DNA of 10,707 nt, from positions 1 to 10,707 of the forward strand of contig JAFGKO010000208.1 in NCBI GenBank assembly GCA_016928525.1, given 5' to 3'. This document shows, piece after piece, positions 473-10,280 of this stretch (within the stretch, counting starts at the first letter, position 1; each line of letters starts with the position of its first letter). The notes under the pieces are model-generated. The model ran no database searches and had not been told where the DNA came from. It saw nothing but the letters and a program-made list of their open reading frames with translations. The position numbers and the translations under genes are program-made. The stretch comes from Anaerolineales bacterium. Lineage in GTDB: Bacteria > Chloroflexota > Anaerolineae > Anaerolineales > Villigracilaceae.

Positions 473-523
473 CGTCAATAATAGCGAGGAGATTGCTTCA
501 TCGCTTTGCCCCTCGCAATGACA
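473..523 (-). repeat. Short copy of the TGTCATTGCGAG palindromic element, upstream of the LysE-type gene
   Basis: The right end (512-523, CTCGCAATGACA) is identical to the 12-bp terminal repeat of the 84-bp element at 6393-6476. Read on the minus strand, this copy has TGTCATTGCGAGGGGC, then a shortened middle, then GAAGCAATCTC, matching the left half of that element. The other end (473-488, GTCA...GCGAG) is a degraded terminal repeat with a few extra bases. The element ends only 13 bp before the ATG at 537, so it forms most of the leader of that gene. Confidence 0.75.
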
Positions 524-4804: not shown

Positions 4805-5188
4805 ATGCCCGGTGGACAAGGTTACGGAATGGGACAAGGCCGCAGACGCGGCCAGCGCAAAATGTTTTTTTTGCAATCCTGTCTGCTCGTGCTGCTACAC
4901 CGTGAGCCGGGATATGGTTACAGCCTGATGGACGGCTTGCAAGAATTCGGCTTCCAACCTGACCAGATGGACATCAGTATCATCTATCGGGCCTTGCGAA
5001 ACCTCGGAGAGGACGGTCTGGTCAGCGATACCTGGGACGACAACAGCCTCGGCCCACAACGGCGAGTGTACACCCTCACCCCACTGGGCGAAGATGTGCT
5101 GGCCGAGTGGATCCAAAATTTGCGCCAGAGACGCAAAGAGATCGAGGCGCTGGAGGCAGCTTATGACGCTGTCAAGAAAAATTCATAG
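4805..5188 (+). CDS. PadR-family transcriptional repressor
   Basis: This 127-residue regulator has a PadR winged-helix DNA-binding domain and is probably an autorepressor of this operon. The core runs from about residue 20 (FFLQSCLLVLLHREPGYGYSLMDGLQEFGF) through the recognition helix DISIIYRALRNLGEDGLV to the wing (QRRVYTLTPLGEDVLAEW). The conserved YRALRxLxExGLV and RRVYxLTxxG signatures are both present. It ends in a short charged helix (RQRRKEIEALEAAYDAVKK), as in the short PadR type with a single dimerisation helix. The N-terminal MPGGQGYGMGQGRRRGQRK is Gly/Arg-rich and flexible, reminiscent of the DUF5320 protein encoded next. AGGAG at 4794-4798 fixes the ATG. The inducer is unknown; the gene context suggests a metal, cluster or redox signal. 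Confidence 0.92.
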   Translation: MPGGQGYGMGQGRRRGQRKMFFLQSCLLVLLHREPGYGYSLMDGLQEFGFQPDQMDISIIYRALRNLGEDGLVSDTWDDNSLGPQRRVYTLTPLGEDVLAEWIQNLRQRRKEIEALEAAYDAVKKNS

Positions 5189-5190
5189 GA

Positions 5191-5208
5191 TAACGACTGA
5201 GGTCGTTA
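5191..5208 (+). promoter_or_regulatory. Small hairpin between padR and the DUF5320 gene
   Basis: A perfect 7-bp stem, TAACGAC (5191-5197) and GTCGTTA (5202-5208), closes a TGAG tetraloop right after the padR stop codon. There is no T-run, so full termination is unlikely. It could pause polymerase or mark an RNA processing/stability boundary that lets downstream genes be expressed at a different level from the regulator. Confidence 0.45.
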
Positions 5209-5233
5209 CTACAGTTCACTTGTAAGACACCTA

Positions 5234-5244
5234 AAAGGAGGTGA
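5234..5244 (+). promoter_or_regulatory. Very strong ribosome binding site of the DUF5320 gene
   Basis: AAAGGAGGTGA lies 4 nt before the ATG at 5249 (GGAGG is 7 nt away). It is almost fully complementary to the 16S rRNA tail and is the best ribosome binding site in the window. It suggests that this small protein is made in larger amounts than its neighbours. Confidence 0.7.
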
Positions 5245-5248
5245 CACT

Positions 5249-5515
5249 ATGCCATATAGAGATAGAACCGGACCCACAGGACAGGGTCCCCGCACAGGGC
5301 GCGGCGCAGGAAACTGCAACGGACAGGGCGGCGCTGGGCGCTTTGGTGGTCGCGGCTTGGGATTTGGTCGCGGCGGCCGCGGCCGTGGCTTTGGTCGCGG
5401 CTTGGGGTTTGCCCCGGAGCAGGAGCGCTCCTGGTTGGAAAGCCAGGTTCAGGCCTTGCAATCTGCCCTTCAAAGCATCACAGAACGGTTGGATGCTTTG
5501 AAGAGAGACAAATAA
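5249..5515 (+). CDS. DUF5320-type Gly/Arg-rich small protein
   Basis: This 88-residue protein resembles the DUF5320 family: it starts MPYRDRTGPTGQGPRTGRGAG, then has a low-complexity Gly/Arg/Phe tract (about residues 28-53, with GRGLGFGRG-type repeats), and ends in a short amphipathic, probably coiled-coil helix (residues 60-88, LESQVQALQSALQSITERLDALKRDK). There is one cysteine, in GAGNCNGQGG. Proteins of this type are commonly encoded beside Nitro_FeMo-Co proteins and MinD-type ATPases in anaerobes, but no function is established. The helix suggests oligomerisation, and the cationic glycine-rich part may be a flexible binding segment; both are inference. The strong ribosome binding site points to abundant synthesis. 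It overlaps nothing and lies 25 nt before the next gene. Confidence 0.82.
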   Translation: MPYRDRTGPTGQGPRTGRGAGNCNGQGGAGRFGGRGLGFGRGGRGRGFGRGLGFAPEQERSWLESQVQALQSALQSITERLDALKRDK

Positions 5516-5540
5516 AGATCAAATAAGTAGAGAGCAGTGC

Positions 5541-5918
5541 ATGAAACTTGCAATATCCATCTCCGGTAAGACGCTAGACTCCCCCTTTGACGCGCGCTTT
5601 GGGCGCGCCGCCGCCTTCTGCATCGTGGATACTGAAAACGGTGAATGGCAGGCCTTCGACAACCCGGCGCTGTCCGCTTCGGGCGGCGCCGGCGTGCAGG
5701 CAGCTCAATTCATTGCCAGACAAGGCGCACAGGCGGTGGCCAGCGGGGCGTTCGGACCGAATGCCTTCGACACGCTGGCCGCGGCCGAAATCGAAATGTA
5801 TCTCGCGCCCGGCAACCAGGCTCATAGCGCGGCTGAAATCTTGGCGATGTTCAAAGCCGGGCAGCTGACCAAAGCCGAAGCCGCCACGCACGAAGGGCAT
5901 CACGGAGGCCGTCGCTGA
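5541..5918 (+). CDS. Nitro_FeMo-Co (NifX/NifB C-terminal-like) protein, first copy
   Basis: This 125-residue protein has the dinitrogenase iron-molybdenum cofactor biosynthesis fold, an RNase-H-like domain that holds metal-sulfur clusters (NifX, NafY, NifB C-terminus, Desulfovibrio ORP). The landmarks are MKLAISISG at the start, the FDARFGRAAAFCIVD strand-loop with the family's FGR motif, the SGGAGVQAAQFIA helix and the SGAFGPNAFDTLAAAEIE segment. The tail ends HEGHHGGRR, four residues after AATHEG, giving a His-rich end that could bind metal. No nitrogenase genes are present, so a role in nitrogen fixation is unlikely. Its TGA shares bases with the next ATG (TGATG at 5916-5920), so translation is coupled to the first ATPase, its likely partner. 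The Shine-Dalgarno is weak. Confidence 0.9.
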   Translation: MKLAISISGKTLDSPFDARFGRAAAFCIVDTENGEWQAFDNPALSASGGAGVQAAQFIARQGAQAVASGAFGPNAFDTLAAAEIEMYLAPGNQAHSAAEILAMFKAGQLTKAEAATHEGHHGGRR

Positions 5919-6913
5919 TGCGGATTGTGGTTGCCAGCGGCAAAGGCGGGACGGGCAAGACCACCATCGCCACCAGCCTGGCGCTGGTCGCTGCCGAGCA
6001 GGACGCCGTCCGCTTTATGGATTGCGATGTGGAAGCGCCCAACGCCGCTCTCTTCCTCGACCCGATATTCGAGGCGCGCAAAGAAGTCGGCATCCTGATC
6101 CCGCAAGTGGACGAAGCCGCCTGCACCTTCTGCGGCAAATGCGCGGAAGTCTGCCAGTTCCACGCCATCGCGGTCATAGGCCAGAAGACGCTGGTCTTCC
6201 CGGAACTATGTCACGGCTGCGGCAGTTGCACGCTGGTCTGCCCGGAACATGCCATCAGCGAAAAGCTGGATGTGCTGGGTGTTCTTGAAGGCGGACCTAC
6301 CGCTCAAGGCATCGACTTTGCCCAGGGCGTGATGAACATCGGCGAACCAATGGCCGTACCTATCATCCGTGAATTGAAGAAGTGGCAACCCATGTCATTG
6401 CGAGGGGCGGTTTTCCCCGAAGCAATCTCATCGAAAGCAAGTAGAGATGCCTTCGCGCTTCGCGCTCGCAATGACAGCATCGAGATCCGCGACGCGCCTC
6501 CCGGCGCATCCTGCCCGGTGGTGGAGACCATCCGCGGCACGGACTTCGTCCTGCTGGTTACCGAGCCGACGCCCTTCGGCCTGCACGACTTGAAGCAGGT
6601 AGTAGGAATCGCCCGCGAACTGGGACTCCCGGCGGGCGTAGTGATCAACCGCGACGGCATCGGCGACAACGCTGTAGATGCTTACTGCGCCGAAGCTGGC
6701 TTGCCAATTCTAATGCGGATTCCAATGGAGCGGCGATTTGCCGAGGGTGTGGCGCAAGGAAAAACGCTGATACAGATCGAACCGGAATATGCCGCCCAAT
6801 TTCAACAGGTATTGGCCCAAATCCAGACACAGCTTCATACCGCCGGGGGACTGCAGGCGACTGAAAAGGCGCAATGCGGAAAAAAGGGCAAATTGGAAAC
6901 CTTTCACCCATGA
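5918..6913 (+). CDS. MinD/ParA-type ATPase with inserted 2x[4Fe-4S] ferredoxin domain, first copy (carries in-frame repeat insertion)
   Basis: This 331-residue P-loop ATPase is of the MinD superfamily subgroup that carries a ferredoxin domain. The deviant Walker A GKGGTGKTT is at residues 8-16, with the signature lysine Lys9. Asp37 (DCDVEAPN) follows. The ferredoxin insert has two complete motifs, Cys69/72/75/79 and Cys98/101/104/108. The conserved DAPPGASCPV is at residues 192-201. All expected functional residues are present. The protein is longer than I would expect because 84 bp of palindromic repeat (6393-6476) adds 28 residues (about 159-187, MSLRGAVFPEA...ARND) between helix LKKWQP and DAPPG. 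Without it the protein would be 303 residues and in frame. It overlaps both neighbours (TGATG upstream, ATGA downstream). It probably couples ATP hydrolysis to cluster assembly or transfer on the Nitro_FeMo-Co proteins, by analogy with ORP operons. Confidence 0.92.
   Translation: MRIVVASGKGGTGKTTIATSLALVAAEQDAVRFMDCDVEAPNAALFLDPIFEARKEVGILIPQVDEAACTFCGKCAEVCQFHAIAVIGQKTLVFPELCHGCGSCTLVCPEHAISEKLDVLGVLEGGPTAQGIDFAQGVMNIGEPMAVPIIRELKKWQPMSLRGAVFPEAISSKASRDAFALRARNDSIEIRDAPPGASCPVVETIRGTDFVLLVTEPTPFGLHDLKQVVGIARELGLPAGVVINRDGIGDNAVDAYCAEAGLPILMRIPMERRFAEGVAQGKTLIQIEPEYAAQFQQVLAQIQTQLHTAGGLQATEKAQCGKKGKLETFHP
6393..6476 (+). repeat. 84-bp palindromic element inserted in frame in the first ATPase gene
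   Basis: The ends are perfect 12-bp terminal inverted repeats, TGTCATTGCGAG (6393-6404) and CTCGCAATGACA (6465-6476). The length, 84 bp, is exactly 28 codons. The interior has further short palindromes (GGGGCGGTTTTCCCC, CGCGCTTCGCGCTCG). A short copy of the same family is at 473-523. Translated copies of this repeat class (SLRGA...PEAI...RNDS) are familiar as spurious or inserted peptides in many genomes. No clear target duplication is visible at the flanks. Confidence 0.88.
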
Positions 6914-7899
6914 AACAACTCGTCGTTCTCAGCGGCAAGGGCGGGACTGGCAAAACCAGCCTCACAGCGGCCTTTGCCCATCTCGCATACGAAAGCCAGT
7001 ACGCCGACCAGATTGTCCTGGCAGATGCGGATGTGGACGCTGCCAACCTGGAACTGGTCCTGCAGCCCCGATTACTGGAAGAACAGGACTTCAGAGGCGG
7101 ACAGGTGGCCGTGATCGATCAGGATACCTGCGCTGCTTGCGGCGACTGTGTGACTGTTTGCCGTTTCGATGCGATTCATTACCACCCTCTCCTCCGGCCC
7201 TTTATTACCCCCGCAGGGGGCTCCCAAAGGGAGAGAGAGGTAGCTGGTTCGGGTGAGGGTTACTATGTCGATCCCATCGCTTGCGACGGTTGCGCGGCCT
7301 GCGTGTACCAGTGCCCTAACGAGAGCATTGCCATGCACGAGCAGGTGGTCGGCAAGTTCTATGCTTCCGAGAGCCGCTACGGACCGCTCTACCACGCGAA
7401 CCTGTTCCCCGGCCAGGAAAACTCCGGCAAGCTGGTGACGCTGGTCAAGCAGCGCGCCCGCCTACACGCCCTGGATGAGAACCGGGAATTGGTCATTGTG
7501 GATGGCCCGCCCGGCATCGGCTGCCCGGTCATTTCGGCCACCTCCGGCGCGGACCTGGCGCTGATCGTGGCCGAGCCGACGGTAGCAGGCGTGCACGACA
7601 TGCGCCGCGCCTTGCAAACCGTGCAGCATTTTGGCGTGCGGGCGCTGGTGTGCATCAACAAGGCTGACCTGTATCCCGATGGAACGGATGAGATAGAGTC
7701 GTTTTGCAGGGATAACGGCATCCAGACCGCAGGCAGGATCCCGTTCGACTTAACGGTAGCAAGCGCTATGGTCCAGGGCGAAGCGGTGACGGCTTTCCGT
7801 CCGGATGCGCCCGCCAGCGTTGCCATATCCGCTCTCTGGGAGCGCGTGCTCCTGTCCCTTTTGGATGGTATCCCTTCGGATGATATCCCTTCTGGATGA
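6910..7899 (+). CDS. MinD/ParA-type ATPase with inserted 2x[4Fe-4S] ferredoxin domain, second copy (carries a different in-frame repeat)
   Basis: This 329-residue paralogue of the preceding ATPase starts at the ATG at 6910, which overlaps the previous stop codon as ATGA; the open frame continues upstream to 6874, but MKQLVVLSGKGGTGKTS is the proper family start. The deviant Walker A GKGGTGKTS spans residues 9-17, and ADADVDAANLEL contains Asp41. Cluster motifs are Cys74/77/80/84 and Cys125/128/131/135, with DGPPGIGCPV at 198-207. Between the two cluster motifs about 27 residues (roughly 91-117, HPLLRPFITPAGG...GSGEG) come from a palindromic repeat. The spacing from Ile89 to Cys125 is 35 residues, against 13 in the first ATPase. 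The C-terminus is a tandem-repeat tail (GIPSDDIPSG). The two ATPases may act as a heterodimer, as proposed for paired ORP ATPases. Confidence 0.91.
   Translation: MKQLVVLSGKGGTGKTSLTAAFAHLAYESQYADQIVLADADVDAANLELVLQPRLLEEQDFRGGQVAVIDQDTCAACGDCVTVCRFDAIHYHPLLRPFITPAGGSQREREVAGSGEGYYVDPIACDGCAACVYQCPNESIAMHEQVVGKFYASESRYGPLYHANLFPGQENSGKLVTLVKQRARLHALDENRELVIVDGPPGIGCPVISATSGADLALIVAEPTVAGVHDMRRALQTVQHFGVRALVCINKADLYPDGTDEIESFCRDNGIQTAGRIPFDLTVASAMVQGEAVTAFRPDAPASVAISALWERVLLSLLDGIPSDDIPSG
7184..7260 (+). repeat. About 77-bp palindromic element inserted in frame in the second ATPase gene
   Basis: The ends are near-perfect inverted repeats, ACCCTCTCC (7184-7192) and GGTGAGGGT (7252-7260), 8 of 9 matching. 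Inside are CCCCC-GCA-GGGGG (7208-7220) and CTCCC-AAA-GGGAG (7221-7233). This is the widespread ACCCTCACCC...GGGAGAGG type of repeat. TTAC occurs at 7179-7182 and again at 7260-7263, 81 bp apart, and could be a target duplication; removing 81 bp restores an open frame (DAIHYYVDP). Confidence 0.8.
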
Positions 7900-7900
7900 T
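7863..7900 (+). repeat. 15-bp tandem repeat at the end of the second ATPase gene
   Basis: GGATGGTATCCCTTC (7863-7877) is followed directly by GGATGATATCCCTTC (7878-7892), one base different. After a single T a third partial unit, GGATGAT, runs to 7900 and supplies the stop codon. The units are five codons long and encode the tail GIPSD-DIPSG. Copy-number changes would lengthen the tail without a frameshift, but the T before the third unit shifts frame and creates the TGA. Confidence 0.7.
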
Positions 7901-7905
7901 AAAGC

Positions 7906-8202
7906 ATGAGCGAACCGTCACTGGAAGAAACCATTCTGGAACGCCTGCGGAGCGTGATCGATCCCGAGACCAACGTGGACGTAGTGCGCATGCGCCTGGT
8001 GGAAAACCTGTGGGCCGACGCGCTCGGGAAAGTGCGTTATACTTTTCGGCCATCCTCGTTCGTCTGTCCGATCGCGGTCTCGCTGGCCATGGACATCAAA
8101 AAGGCCGTGGCAGATGTGCCCGGCGTCACATCGCAAGAAATCGCTGTGGAAGGCTATCTGGCCGCAGCAGAATTAGAAACCCTCATCAATCAGGAGATTT
8201 AA
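7906..8202 (+). CDS. MIP18/DUF59-family iron-sulfur assembly protein
   Basis: This 98-residue single-domain protein of the MIP18 (DUF59, SufT/PaaD-like) family acts in maturation or repair of iron-sulfur proteins. The conserved LRSVIDPETNVDVVRM (residues 14-29, with the DPE motif at 19-21) and RPSSFVCPIAVSLAMDI (48-64, containing the conserved Cys54) are both present. Family length is normal. A DUF59 unit is often associated with MinD/Mrp-type ATPases, sometimes fused to them as in Mrp, so finding it directly after two such ATPases fits a shared cluster-handling role. It begins 6 nt after the ATPase stop codon. The ribosome binding site is weak because that stretch is occupied by the tandem repeat. 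The next gene begins 1 nt after its stop codon. Confidence 0.87.
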   Translation: MSEPSLEETILERLRSVIDPETNVDVVRMRLVENLWADALGKVRYTFRPSSFVCPIAVSLAMDIKKAVADVPGVTSQEIAVEGYLAAAELETLINQEI

Positions 8203-8203
8203 C

Positions 8204-8575
8204 ATGAAAATTGCAATCACCGCTGAAAGCAACAACGGCCTCGAAAGCGTGGTAGCCCAGCACTTTGGTCACGCCCCCTATTTCATTCTGGTGGACGTGG
8301 AGAACGGGCAGGTGACCGCCACGCAGAGCGTGGCCAACCCGTTCACGAACGGGCACGCTCCCGGGCAAATCCCCGGCTTCATCCAGGAGCAACACGCGGA
8401 TGTGATGCTAAGCGGCGGCATGGGCGGGCGCGCCATCCAGTTCTTCGAACAGGCCGGCGTCAAAGCTGCCACAGGCGCCAGCGGCACCGTCCGCCAGGCG
8501 CTGGAGAGTTACCTGGGCGGCAAGCTGAGCGAGGCCGCGCCATGTGACGAGAGCGTGGAACACGGGCACGGGTAA
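8204..8575 (+). CDS. Nitro_FeMo-Co (NifX/NifB C-terminal-like) protein, second copy
   Basis: This 123-residue protein has the same fold as the first copy but belongs to a different subgroup. Landmarks are MKIAITAESN at the start, VVAQHFGHAPYFILVDVENG (the HFGHAP version of the metal-site loop), ANPFTNGHAPGQIPGFI, and SGGMGGRAIQFFEQAGVKAATGASG, the conserved GMGGRAI motif. The tail is CDESVEHGHG, with one Cys and two His residues that could bind metal. Proteins of this subgroup include the cluster-carrying ORP of Desulfovibrio and many NifB-like proteins in anaerobes. AGGAG at 8192-8196, inside the end of the DUF59 gene, fixes the ATG, and only 1 nt separates the two genes. It is the last gene of the operon, followed by the hairpin at 8593-8634. 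Confidence 0.92.
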   Translation: MKIAITAESNNGLESVVAQHFGHAPYFILVDVENGQVTATQSVANPFTNGHAPGQIPGFIQEQHADVMLSGGMGGRAIQFFEQAGVKAATGASGTVRQALESYLGGKLSEAAPCDESVEHGHG

Positions 8576-8591: not shown

Positions 8592-8631
8592 GCCTCCCCC
8601 AAATACGTCTGAAGTGCGACGTATTTGGGGG
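8592..8631. repeat. 40-bp direct repeat, left copy flanking the UDP-glucose dehydrogenase gene
   Basis: Bases 8592-8631 are identical to 10241-10280 over all 40 positions, including the whole left arm, the loop and most of the right arm. The bases just before are also similar pyrimidine-rich stretches (CCTCCCG against CCGCCCA). Confidence 0.9.
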
Positions 8632-8634
8632 AGG
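8593..8634 (+). terminator. Strong hairpin terminator at the end of the ATPase operon
   Basis: Perfect 17-bp arms, CCTCCCCCAAATACGTC (8593-8609) and GACGTATTTGGGGGAGG (8618-8634), enclose an 8-nt loop (TGAAGTGC). The stem can extend by two G-T wobble pairs and is followed by TTTGTTATTT. It begins 17 nt after the stop codon. The same sequence recurs at 10241-10280, so it is both a terminator by position and a member of a repeat family. Confidence 0.8.
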
Positions 8635-8840: not shown

Positions 8841-10226
8841 ATGGCAAACATACTTTGTATTGGCGCTGGCTATGTGGGCGGGCCGACCATGGCCGTCATT
8901 GCGAAACATTGCCCCCAACACCGGGTAGTGGTGGTGGACATCAACGCGGAGAAGATTGCCGCCTGGCAATCGGACCAAATCCCGATCTATGAGCCGGGAC
9001 TGAAGGAGATCGTGCTTAGCATCCGGGGCAGGAATCTCTTCTTCTCCACAGAGATCGAACGCAACATCGCCGAAGCGGACATCATCTTCGTGAGCGTCAA
9101 CACGCCGACCAAAACCTTCGGCCAGGGCGCGGGCAAGGCGGCCGACTTGCAATACTGGGAAAAGACAGCTCGCCAGATCGTGGAGGTCTCGACCTCGCCC
9201 AAGATCGTCGTCGAAAAGAGCACGCTGCCGGTCCGGACAGCCGAGGCGATGGAGCGCATCCTCAATTTCAACGATAAGGGACTGGTCTTCGATGTGCTCT
9301 CCAACCCCGAGTTCCTGGCGGAGGGCACTGCCATTTCCGATATGGAGAACCCCGACCGCGTCATTATTGGCGGGCGAGACACGCCCTCAGGCCAGAAGGC
9401 CGTCCAGGCGCTTGCAGACATCTATGCCCAGTGGGTGCCACGCGAACGCATTCTCACCACCAACCTGTGGTCCAGCGAACTGTCCAAGCTGGCGGCCAAC
9501 GCCTTCCTGGCGCAGCGCATTTCGTCCATCAACGCGCTGTCCAACCTGTGCGAAAAGACCGAGGCGGATGTGAACGAGGTGGCGCACGCCATTGGGATGG
9601 ACAGCCGCATCGGTCCGCGTTTCTTGCAAGCCAGCGTTGGCTTTGGCGGCTCGTGCTTCAAAAAAGACATCCTCAACCTGGTCTACCTGTGCGAATACTA
9701 CGACCTGCACGAGGTGGCGGCCTATTGGGAACAGATCGTCAAAATGAACGAGTACCAGGAGATCAACTTCGTTTCCAAGATGGTCACGGCCATGTTCAAT
9801 AGCGTGGCCGGGAAACGCATCGCCCTGTTCGGCGTGGCCTTCAAAGCCCACACCAGTGACACGCGCGAGTCGCCCGCCCTGGCTGTCTGCCGGACCTTGT
9901 TGGAAGAGCGGGCCCAGGTCGTCATTACCGATCCGTATGCGTTGGACAACGCACGCCTCGACCTGAGCGACGTCGATGGGCAGGTGATCTTCGAGCCGGA
10001 TCCGTACGCTGCCGCCCGGGAAGCGCACGCCATCGCCCTGGTCACTGAGTGGCCCCAGTTTGCCGAACTGGACTACCAGGCCATCCATGATGCCATGATC
10101 CAGCCGGCCTTTATCTTCGATGGCCGCAACATCCTGGACCACAAGAAACTGTACGAGATCGGTTTCAACGTATATGCCGTCGGCAATCCGCCCCGCACTC
10201 ATTTTCACGACACGCAGCACTTTTAG
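8841..10226 (+). CDS. ugd: UDP-glucose 6-dehydrogenase
   Basis: This 461-residue enzyme oxidises UDP-glucose to UDP-glucuronate with two NAD+, supplying uronic acid for capsule, exopolysaccharide or cell-wall glycans. The N-terminal Rossmann domain starts [16 protein letters not shown] (GxGYVG) and has VVVVDIN as the NAD-binding acidic strand. [16 protein letters not shown] and [20 protein letters not shown] follow in the usual order. The dimer helix [21 protein letters not shown] and the active site [10 protein letters not shown], with nucleophile Cys272, are intact. The C-terminal domain begins about residue 325 ([20 protein letters not shown]). Several blocks, such as LPxYEPGL-type, [23 protein letters not shown] and [21 protein letters not shown], resemble the animal-type enzymes more than short bacterial TuaD/Ugd proteins. 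AAGGA at 8828-8832 supports the start. It stands alone between two identical hairpin repeats. Confidence 0.96.
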
Positions 10227-10240
10227 GCCCCCACCGCCCA

Positions 10241-10280
10241 GCCTCCCCCAAATACGTCTGAAGTGCGACGTATTTGGGGG
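10241..10280. repeat. 40-bp direct repeat, right copy, hairpin after the UDP-glucose dehydrogenase gene
   Basis: This is identical to 8592-8631. Within it CCCCCAAATACGTC and GACGTATTTGGGGG form a perfect 14-bp stem around TGAAGTGC. An outer pairing of GCCCCC (10228-10233) with GGGGGC (10287-10292) may lengthen the structure. No T-run follows directly, so termination is less certain here than at the left copy. Confidence 0.88.

Follow-up and report, generated by a model that had tools for sequence, protein, structure and literature searches.

A palindromic repeat recurs in frame, and in changing form, at one loop of a MinD/ApbC-type ATPase in an Anaerolineales bacterium and its relatives

Palindromic repeats within coding sequences are known as scattered cases, and the question they raise is whether they help to shape proteins or are simply tolerated. 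An 84-bp palindrome lying in frame in a P-loop ATPase gene raises this question for contig JAFGKO010000208.1 of an Anaerolineales bacterium, 10,707 nucleotides long and referred to below as the window (Table 1). The first-pass annotation of the window had assigned perfect 12-bp palindromic ends to the element. This was confirmed: the terminal arms are 12 nt each and 100% complementary, with 60 nt between them. A 12-bp inverted repeat taken alone is not overwhelming evidence of an element; at least one perfect pair of 12-mers, 20-200 nt apart, was found in 18 out of 100 dinucleotide shuffles of the window. A folding energy of -36 kcal/mol (z -3.78) was obtained for the 92-nt region 6389-6480, and none of 200 shuffles did equally well. 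The element can be considered real because it is repeated, both in a second copy within the window (473-523), which has 20 identical nucleotides (508-527) in common with the in-gene element (6389-6408), and as up to 266 half-sites in relatives. A known RNA family was rejected, as a gathering-threshold Rfam search of the window gave 0 matches. A plasmid search with the 92-bp region returned five records with 26-nt matches at E 0.7, which is chance level.

Table 1. Coordinates of the window features discussed in the text
Feature	Position	Strand	Evidence
ATPase host gene (MinD/ApbC-type, P-loop; ferredoxin segment inserted), 331 aa	5918..6913	+	
Palindrome of 84 bp lying in frame; codes for SLRGAVFPEAISSKASRDAFALRARND, with edge codons shared	6393..6476	+	arms, fold, same-kind inserts in relatives
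Left terminal inverted repeat TGTCATTGCGAG	6393..6404	+	
Right terminal inverted repeat CTCGCAATGACA	6465..6476	+	
Shorter second copy of the element, in the intergenic stretch immediately upstream of ORF 537-1148	473..523	-	
Ferredoxin-containing P-loop ATPase, the paralogue, which has a recurrent insertion loop of its own	6913..7899	+	
Unrelated second palindrome (ACCCTC...GGGTGAGGGT), carried in frame by the paralogue	7184..7260	+	

The reading frame of the ATPase gene runs through the element to give 331 residues in which the P-loop, both four-cysteine clusters and the DAPPG motif are intact, in keeping with the claim that the element breaks no functional residue. Four out of the six frames of the 84-nt element are stop-free. 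The further claim that removal of the element leaves a clean family-like sequence failed for the loop: excision in silico produced W-QPS-IEIRD, with 3 residues, against 7 residues in 39 out of 40 natural empty loops and 6 in the other. The insert is thus no clean addition of 28 residues, about 4 residues of the usual loop being gone as well. Since the flanks are that much short of the usual 7, the insertion was presumably accompanied or preceded by a small deletion.

Both ATPases lie in an operon-like run (4805-8575), whose genes we take to include those for a PadR-like regulator, a small Gly-rich protein, two NifX-like small proteins and a DUF59-like protein. A third palindromic repeat (CCCCCAAATACGTC...GACGTATTTGGGGG) is present in two near-identical, terminator-like copies (8593-8634 and 10245-10280) just downstream of ORFs 8204-8575 and 8841-10226, and an intergenic 15-bp perfect hairpin, CGTCCCGAAGGTTTT/AAAACCTTCGGGACG, is located at 397-451.

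The in-gene element is a copy of a repeat present in high copy number in relatives. From outer to inner positions the common plan consists of CGTC or TGTC, ATTGCGAG, a variable arm, GAAGCAATC and a short loop, followed by the mirror half with GATTGCTTC, variable arm, CTCGCAAT and GACG or GACA. Exact TCATTGCGAG half-sites were counted in ten relatives: 266 in G183, 104 in G001 (MAG SURF_68, locus L001), 76 in G319, 68 in G375, 39 in G350, 38 in G371, 20 in G318, 5 in G349, 4 in G071 and 3 in G079. The reversed pattern, used as a control, gave 1-7 per genome (3 in G183), and the counts in G349, G071 and G079 are therefore background. Sixty fetched regions of G001 yielded 47 inverted pairs, and the loci of 30 out of 262 half-sites in G183 yielded 17 distinct ones, unpaired half-sites occurring too. 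Paired elements span 37-281 bp, within the distance limits set for pairing, and nearly all of those in G001 and G183 carry the terminal tag CGTC or TGTC; the window copy has TGTC. Read by eye in the same two genomes, the core stem ATTGC/GCAAT is 5 bp, the arms are long and variable and the CCA tail is absent. In four genomes the outer stem forms in 45/47, 15/15, 9/10 and 11/12 elements, with at least three hairpins in only part of them (15/47, 2/15, 5/10 and 4/12). Arms of some G001 elements (L141, L150, L153, L157) share a further module GGTCGAGTAG...GTATCGAGACC, like palindromes nested in palindromes, and several TGTC-ended elements are clustered within ~1 kb of contig C53 of that genome (L171, 1134-2136).

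In-frame genic copies made up 3 out of 47 paired elements in G001 (L123, L132, L141) and 2 out of 17 in G183 (L224, L225), as judged by eye from translations of 14 and 7 open frames, respectively, with Pfam applied to L141 only. The reading frames differ between inserts (SLR, VIA, RHCER (P0098)). No target-site duplication was noticed by eye at the in-gene junctions. The two in-frame elements of G183 are 1.8 kb apart, in what appear by eye to be methylase and helicase genes. RAYT-type genes (PF01797) were found in 9 out of 10 genomes (29 matches), and an exact half-site was present within ~1.5 kb at 1 of the 20 RAYT loci fetched. With a half-site near only one of these 20 loci, no enzyme could be linked to the repeat, and RAYT as its mobiliser found no support.

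Insertion recurs, and turns over, at a single loop of the ATPase. We analyzed the best 120 matches to the insert-bearing protein, a type of query that biases occupancy rates upward, and assigned insert classes by regular expression. The loop between W and (I/L/V/F)EIRD was empty (6-7 residues) in 40 homologues, held this repeat in 73 and another insert in 7. Compared with the empty protein P0061, inserts of at least 8 residues were found at this loop in 77 out of 119 proteins, at the C-terminus in 2 and nowhere else. These many occupied homologues reject a lone insertion. The absence of the 28 residues from homologues, proposed as a check, was observed in as far as 40 out of 120 loops are empty, but a clean 28-residue difference was not found. 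Occupancy differs within the pairs P0006/P0061 and P0027/P0087 (both 96.1% identical) and P0027/P0094 (96.5%), and P0073 and P0074, 89.4% identical over 311 aligned residues, carry different inserts. Inserts start at offset 4 after W in 54 out of 73 cases, 7 in nine, 5 in four, and 3 and 8 in one each; four could not be assigned. Outside these counts, a wider search of the order (37 of 301 genomes) gave 11 readable loci out of 30: two with this repeat, two with another insert and seven short. At the same site, inserts of unrelated sequence (QSDANPAAAHLQLEQFQ; SFPSPTGQINPIEQTSPASSNG) are found in G071 and G079 (L087, L088), two genomes with few copies of the CATTGCGAG repeat. A 66% identical ATPase copy with an empty loop, WPPLRRPALEIWDAPPG, was seen in a MAG labelled Chromatiaceae (L002) and points to transfer or mis-binning.

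A second repeat family is present in frame in the adjacent paralogue (its start at 6913 is our reading; the list of open reading frames gives 6874). Among the best 120 matches to this insert-bearing query plus the window protein (n=121), 33 have inserts and 88 have a 7-8 residue loop; most of the 33 recognisably look like the second family. Occupancy of this loop, site 2, requires 24 changes on the tree, 3 of them forced, and differs in the ~96% identical pair P0152/P0202. Counts of GGGTGAGGGT against control were 82/10 in G071 and 36/16 in G183, both of which carry such an insert at site 2, and 19/19 in G001 and 17/3 in G319, both of which are empty there.

The same pattern was observed in one control enzyme, an aminotransferase class IV (PF01063) chosen for the sole reason that an in-frame element lies within it in G001 (L141). 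The best 120 matches to the insert-bearing query were taken, and 119 were readable, truncated P0338 being dropped. The hypervariable loop is CGTC-type in 45, PQxSC-type in 20, IGNL-type in 14, of other types in 24 and 7 residues long in 16. A long insert is present at that loop in 85 out of 119 homologues, and 13 long inserts lie elsewhere. The five classes need 36 changes (shuffled 65) and are therefore partly inherited; changes between empty and occupied number only 4. In genome DNA, an exact half-site was present in 6 out of 28 readable loops (the 30 best loci of 92 matched genomes). The inserts of L308 and L310 differ at 2 out of 105 bases, with 20 out of 214 flanking third positions changed, and such near-identity indicates that some inserts are inherited. 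In P0247, P0248 and P0272 the loop holds another family, PQTSVC/PPKMQTEVC-like units in varying number, and palindromic DNA similar in kind was seen in L291 and L302. The aminotransferase pattern rejects uniqueness of the ATPase gene as an insertion host. The other control, UDP-glucose dehydrogenase, encoded in the window by a gene with no insert, gave an exact half-site in none of 30 ORFs from 37 matched genomes, 28 of the 30 being only 37-41% identical to the query. The recurrent hits at the ATPase loop, the second family in the paralogue and the similar behaviour of another enzyme all go beyond what the first-pass annotation had foreseen.

We consider it likely that the 84-bp segment is a copy of a high-copy mobile repeat, genic copies of which survive only in permissive loops where the frame stays open, with fast turnover. 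Nested palindromes in high copy are spread over the genome, probably by mobility. Most genic landings would be lost, persistence being limited to those that leave the frame open and fall in a loop that is permissive and probably at the surface; selection presumably clears other insertions from genes. In relatives, the loop linking the LKKW segment to the Walker-B strand (EIRDAPPG) has gained, lost or exchanged inserts many times. The adjacent paralogue offers a second permissive loop, mostly taken by another repeat family, and the frame of the element that is read differs from gene to gene.

The tendency to one main family per loop could instead mark a true hotspot, where mobilising machinery recognises a target sequence at the loops. 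It agrees with this that 73 out of 80 inserts at the ATPase loop are of one kind, the second family not being recognised by eye among the 80, and that most of the 33 site-2 inserts look like the second family. Still, the start register shifts by several codons among inserts, the aminotransferase loop is host to repeats of several kinds, and the genomic stock of repeats may explain the bias (G071, with 82 against 10, is filled at site 2; G319, with 17 against 3, is empty). We regard a hotspot as unlikely.

Surviving slightly less well, and quite unlikely in our opinion, is a single old insertion followed by many losses and by rewriting through ectopic gene conversion with genomic copies. On a tree built without the inserts, presence and absence at the ATPase loop require 27 changes, 9 of which are forced by starred (well supported) branches. 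The mean for shuffled states was 33.6, so the states cluster and part of them must be inherited. Three loop states (empty, this repeat, other) need 34 changes on the same tree. A single clade of carriers was rejected (p-AU 8.2e-41); by itself this test leaves one gain with many losses possible. Against these losses speaks the near-constant length of the empty loop (7 residues in 39 out of 40), which is as expected of an ancestral empty state and which an old insertion could reach only by many precise in-frame losses. One start register is shared by 54 out of 73 inserts, as an old insertion would give, but several others exist, the carriers are scattered on the tree, and the close pair P0073/P0074 (89.4%) has different inserts at the site.

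Comparison of DNA bears on the same issue. Of the 152 genomes in the family to which G183 belongs, 8 have the ATPase gene at E <= 1e-80, with the element in frame in G350, G183, G375 and G001 and an empty loop in G318, G371, G349 and G319. Carriers have 39-266 half-sites and empties 5-76, so copy number alone is not decisive. Around the loop G183 and G375 are 95% identical, with 11 out of 221 flanking residues different. Of their 221 flanking codons, 10 differ at the first position, 4 at the second and 45 (20%) at the third, which demonstrates purifying selection on the flanks and upholds the earlier view that the element adds a peptide to a working gene. Between their inserts, in contrast, 36 out of 84 aligned bases (43%) and 18 out of 28 residues differ, so the insert has changed faster than the third positions (20%), by replacement or conversion. 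The junctions of this pair are alike (W+3 residues; RND+1) while the arms differ, as conversion of arms within an old insertion would also give. Only in G183/G375 does the insert clearly outrun third positions; the other nine pairs of this gene offer no such contrast (32-54% in the inserts, 39-49% at third positions), and in two of the comparisons, G350/G001 and window/G183, the insert differs less than third positions, as an old insertion would allow. An alignable segment in homologues had been named as grounds for abandoning the idea of an insert. Alignable repeats do occur in relatives, but one ancestral segment does not fit the tree. One shared ancestral protein segment was rejected by the scatter of carriers and by the divergence of the G183 and G375 inserts. 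We infer that the inserts arose chiefly by mobility rather than by ectopic conversion.

Homologous recombination among relatives could shuffle empty and occupied loop alleles, so that there were fewer insertions than the tree suggests; we find this distinctly unlikely. Exchange would be favoured because the gene is highly conserved on both sides of the loop, and support is weak at many branches of the tree, 44 out of 117 being open. The 9 presence/absence changes forced by starred branches alone stand against it. Moreover, when five in-gene elements were compared, each resembled some non-allelic genomic copy more closely than it did any allele, although 83 non-allelic candidates were compared with 4 alleles and the larger set is favoured by number alone. 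For the G350 element, the best of its nine own non-allelic copies is 63.3% identical, against 71.7% for the G001 allele.

With respect to function, the insert has model pLDDT values of 26-32; those of the ferredoxin part are low too, and the models are mediocre (mean pLDDT 65 and 60). The encoded peptide is probably disordered. In this ATPase fold the nucleotide sits at the C-terminal ends of strands, and from the fold topology the loop would join the Walker-B strand at its N-terminal end and lie away from the nucleotide. The suggestion that the insert alters ATPase switching found no support: the near-identical P0006 and P0061 (96.1%) differ in it, its sequence changes freely, and the pLDDT of 26-32, weak evidence in itself, points the same way. 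An adaptive insert, kept for altering partner binding or ATPase cycling, is very improbable: many lines keep it open and in frame (the only kind of case that a list of proteins can show) and both adjacent paralogues of the window have inserts, but its sequence, length and presence change between close relatives and its pLDDT is low. The peptide is probably close to neutral, in keeping with a mobile repeat tolerated in permissive loops.

More broadly, it might hold, and might equally fail to hold, that several palindrome families of Anaerolineae keep entering, leaving and rewriting single permissive enzyme loops, often with one family per loop, and so supply new peptides of ~10-50 residues. If true, such loops are a clade-wide, ongoing natural insertion experiment that makes peptides from DNA repeats at a high rate. 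As one loop offers empty, occupied and replaced states in near-identical proteins, tolerance, turnover and function become directly testable. A caution also follows: what looks like a lineage-specific protein segment may be a short repeat, and mobile DNA can dominate the loops of MAG proteins.

Among known systems, Rickettsia palindromic elements (RPE) had been invoked, and the resemblance proved apt. According to the accessible text of Di Nocera 2013 (PMC3733652), the CGTC-tagged palindromes, which have TGTC variants and occur mostly as head-to-head dimers, include RPE-4 and RPE-6. The likeness, by description rather than direct sequence comparison, is that of palindromes in frame inside coding genes, especially for these two types (accessible parts of PMC10969869 and PMC3733652). 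In-frame RPE fusions are described as unusually frequent and their contribution to proteins as unexplored in the accessible part of the review PMC10969869, which gives one conserved encoded peptide; here several reading frames are used, the phylum is another and the same loops are re-used across many relatives.

For the CGTC-tagged REP superfamily, the accessible text of PMC3733652 gives a stem of 8-9 bp, a loop of 4-5 nt, a 3-nt tail that is mostly CCA, CCTC tag variants, intragenic copies and no dedicated transposase. It lists CGTC repeats in five phyla without Chloroflexi, to which GTAG repeats are given instead. The tag, the AT-starting stem, inverted dimers with structured spacers and intragenic copies match our element, whereas its arms are long and variable, its core stem is 5 bp by eye and it has no CCA tail. 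Since stem length and tail differ, we consider that the element works like CGTC-tagged REPs and do not file it as a member.

The same text describes different REPs at about the same recB site in two Xanthomonas species, which resembles the present case of different repeats at about one gene site; here, however, dozens of relatives, three genes and two families in adjacent paralogues are involved. MITEs with in-frame fusions (accessible part of PMC10969869) are likewise small, non-autonomous, bounded by terminal inverted repeats and found within ORFs, but here no target-site duplication was noticed by eye, and the search with PF01797 brought up no parent transposase. Literature searches for REP or intragenic repeats in Chloroflexota and for palindromic elements in Anaerolineae found none, and those with the exact arm strings gave no paper on such repeats by title. 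As far as the literature searched goes, what looks new is the phylum and, above all, the recurrent and changing use that several repeat families make of single loops in several enzymes.
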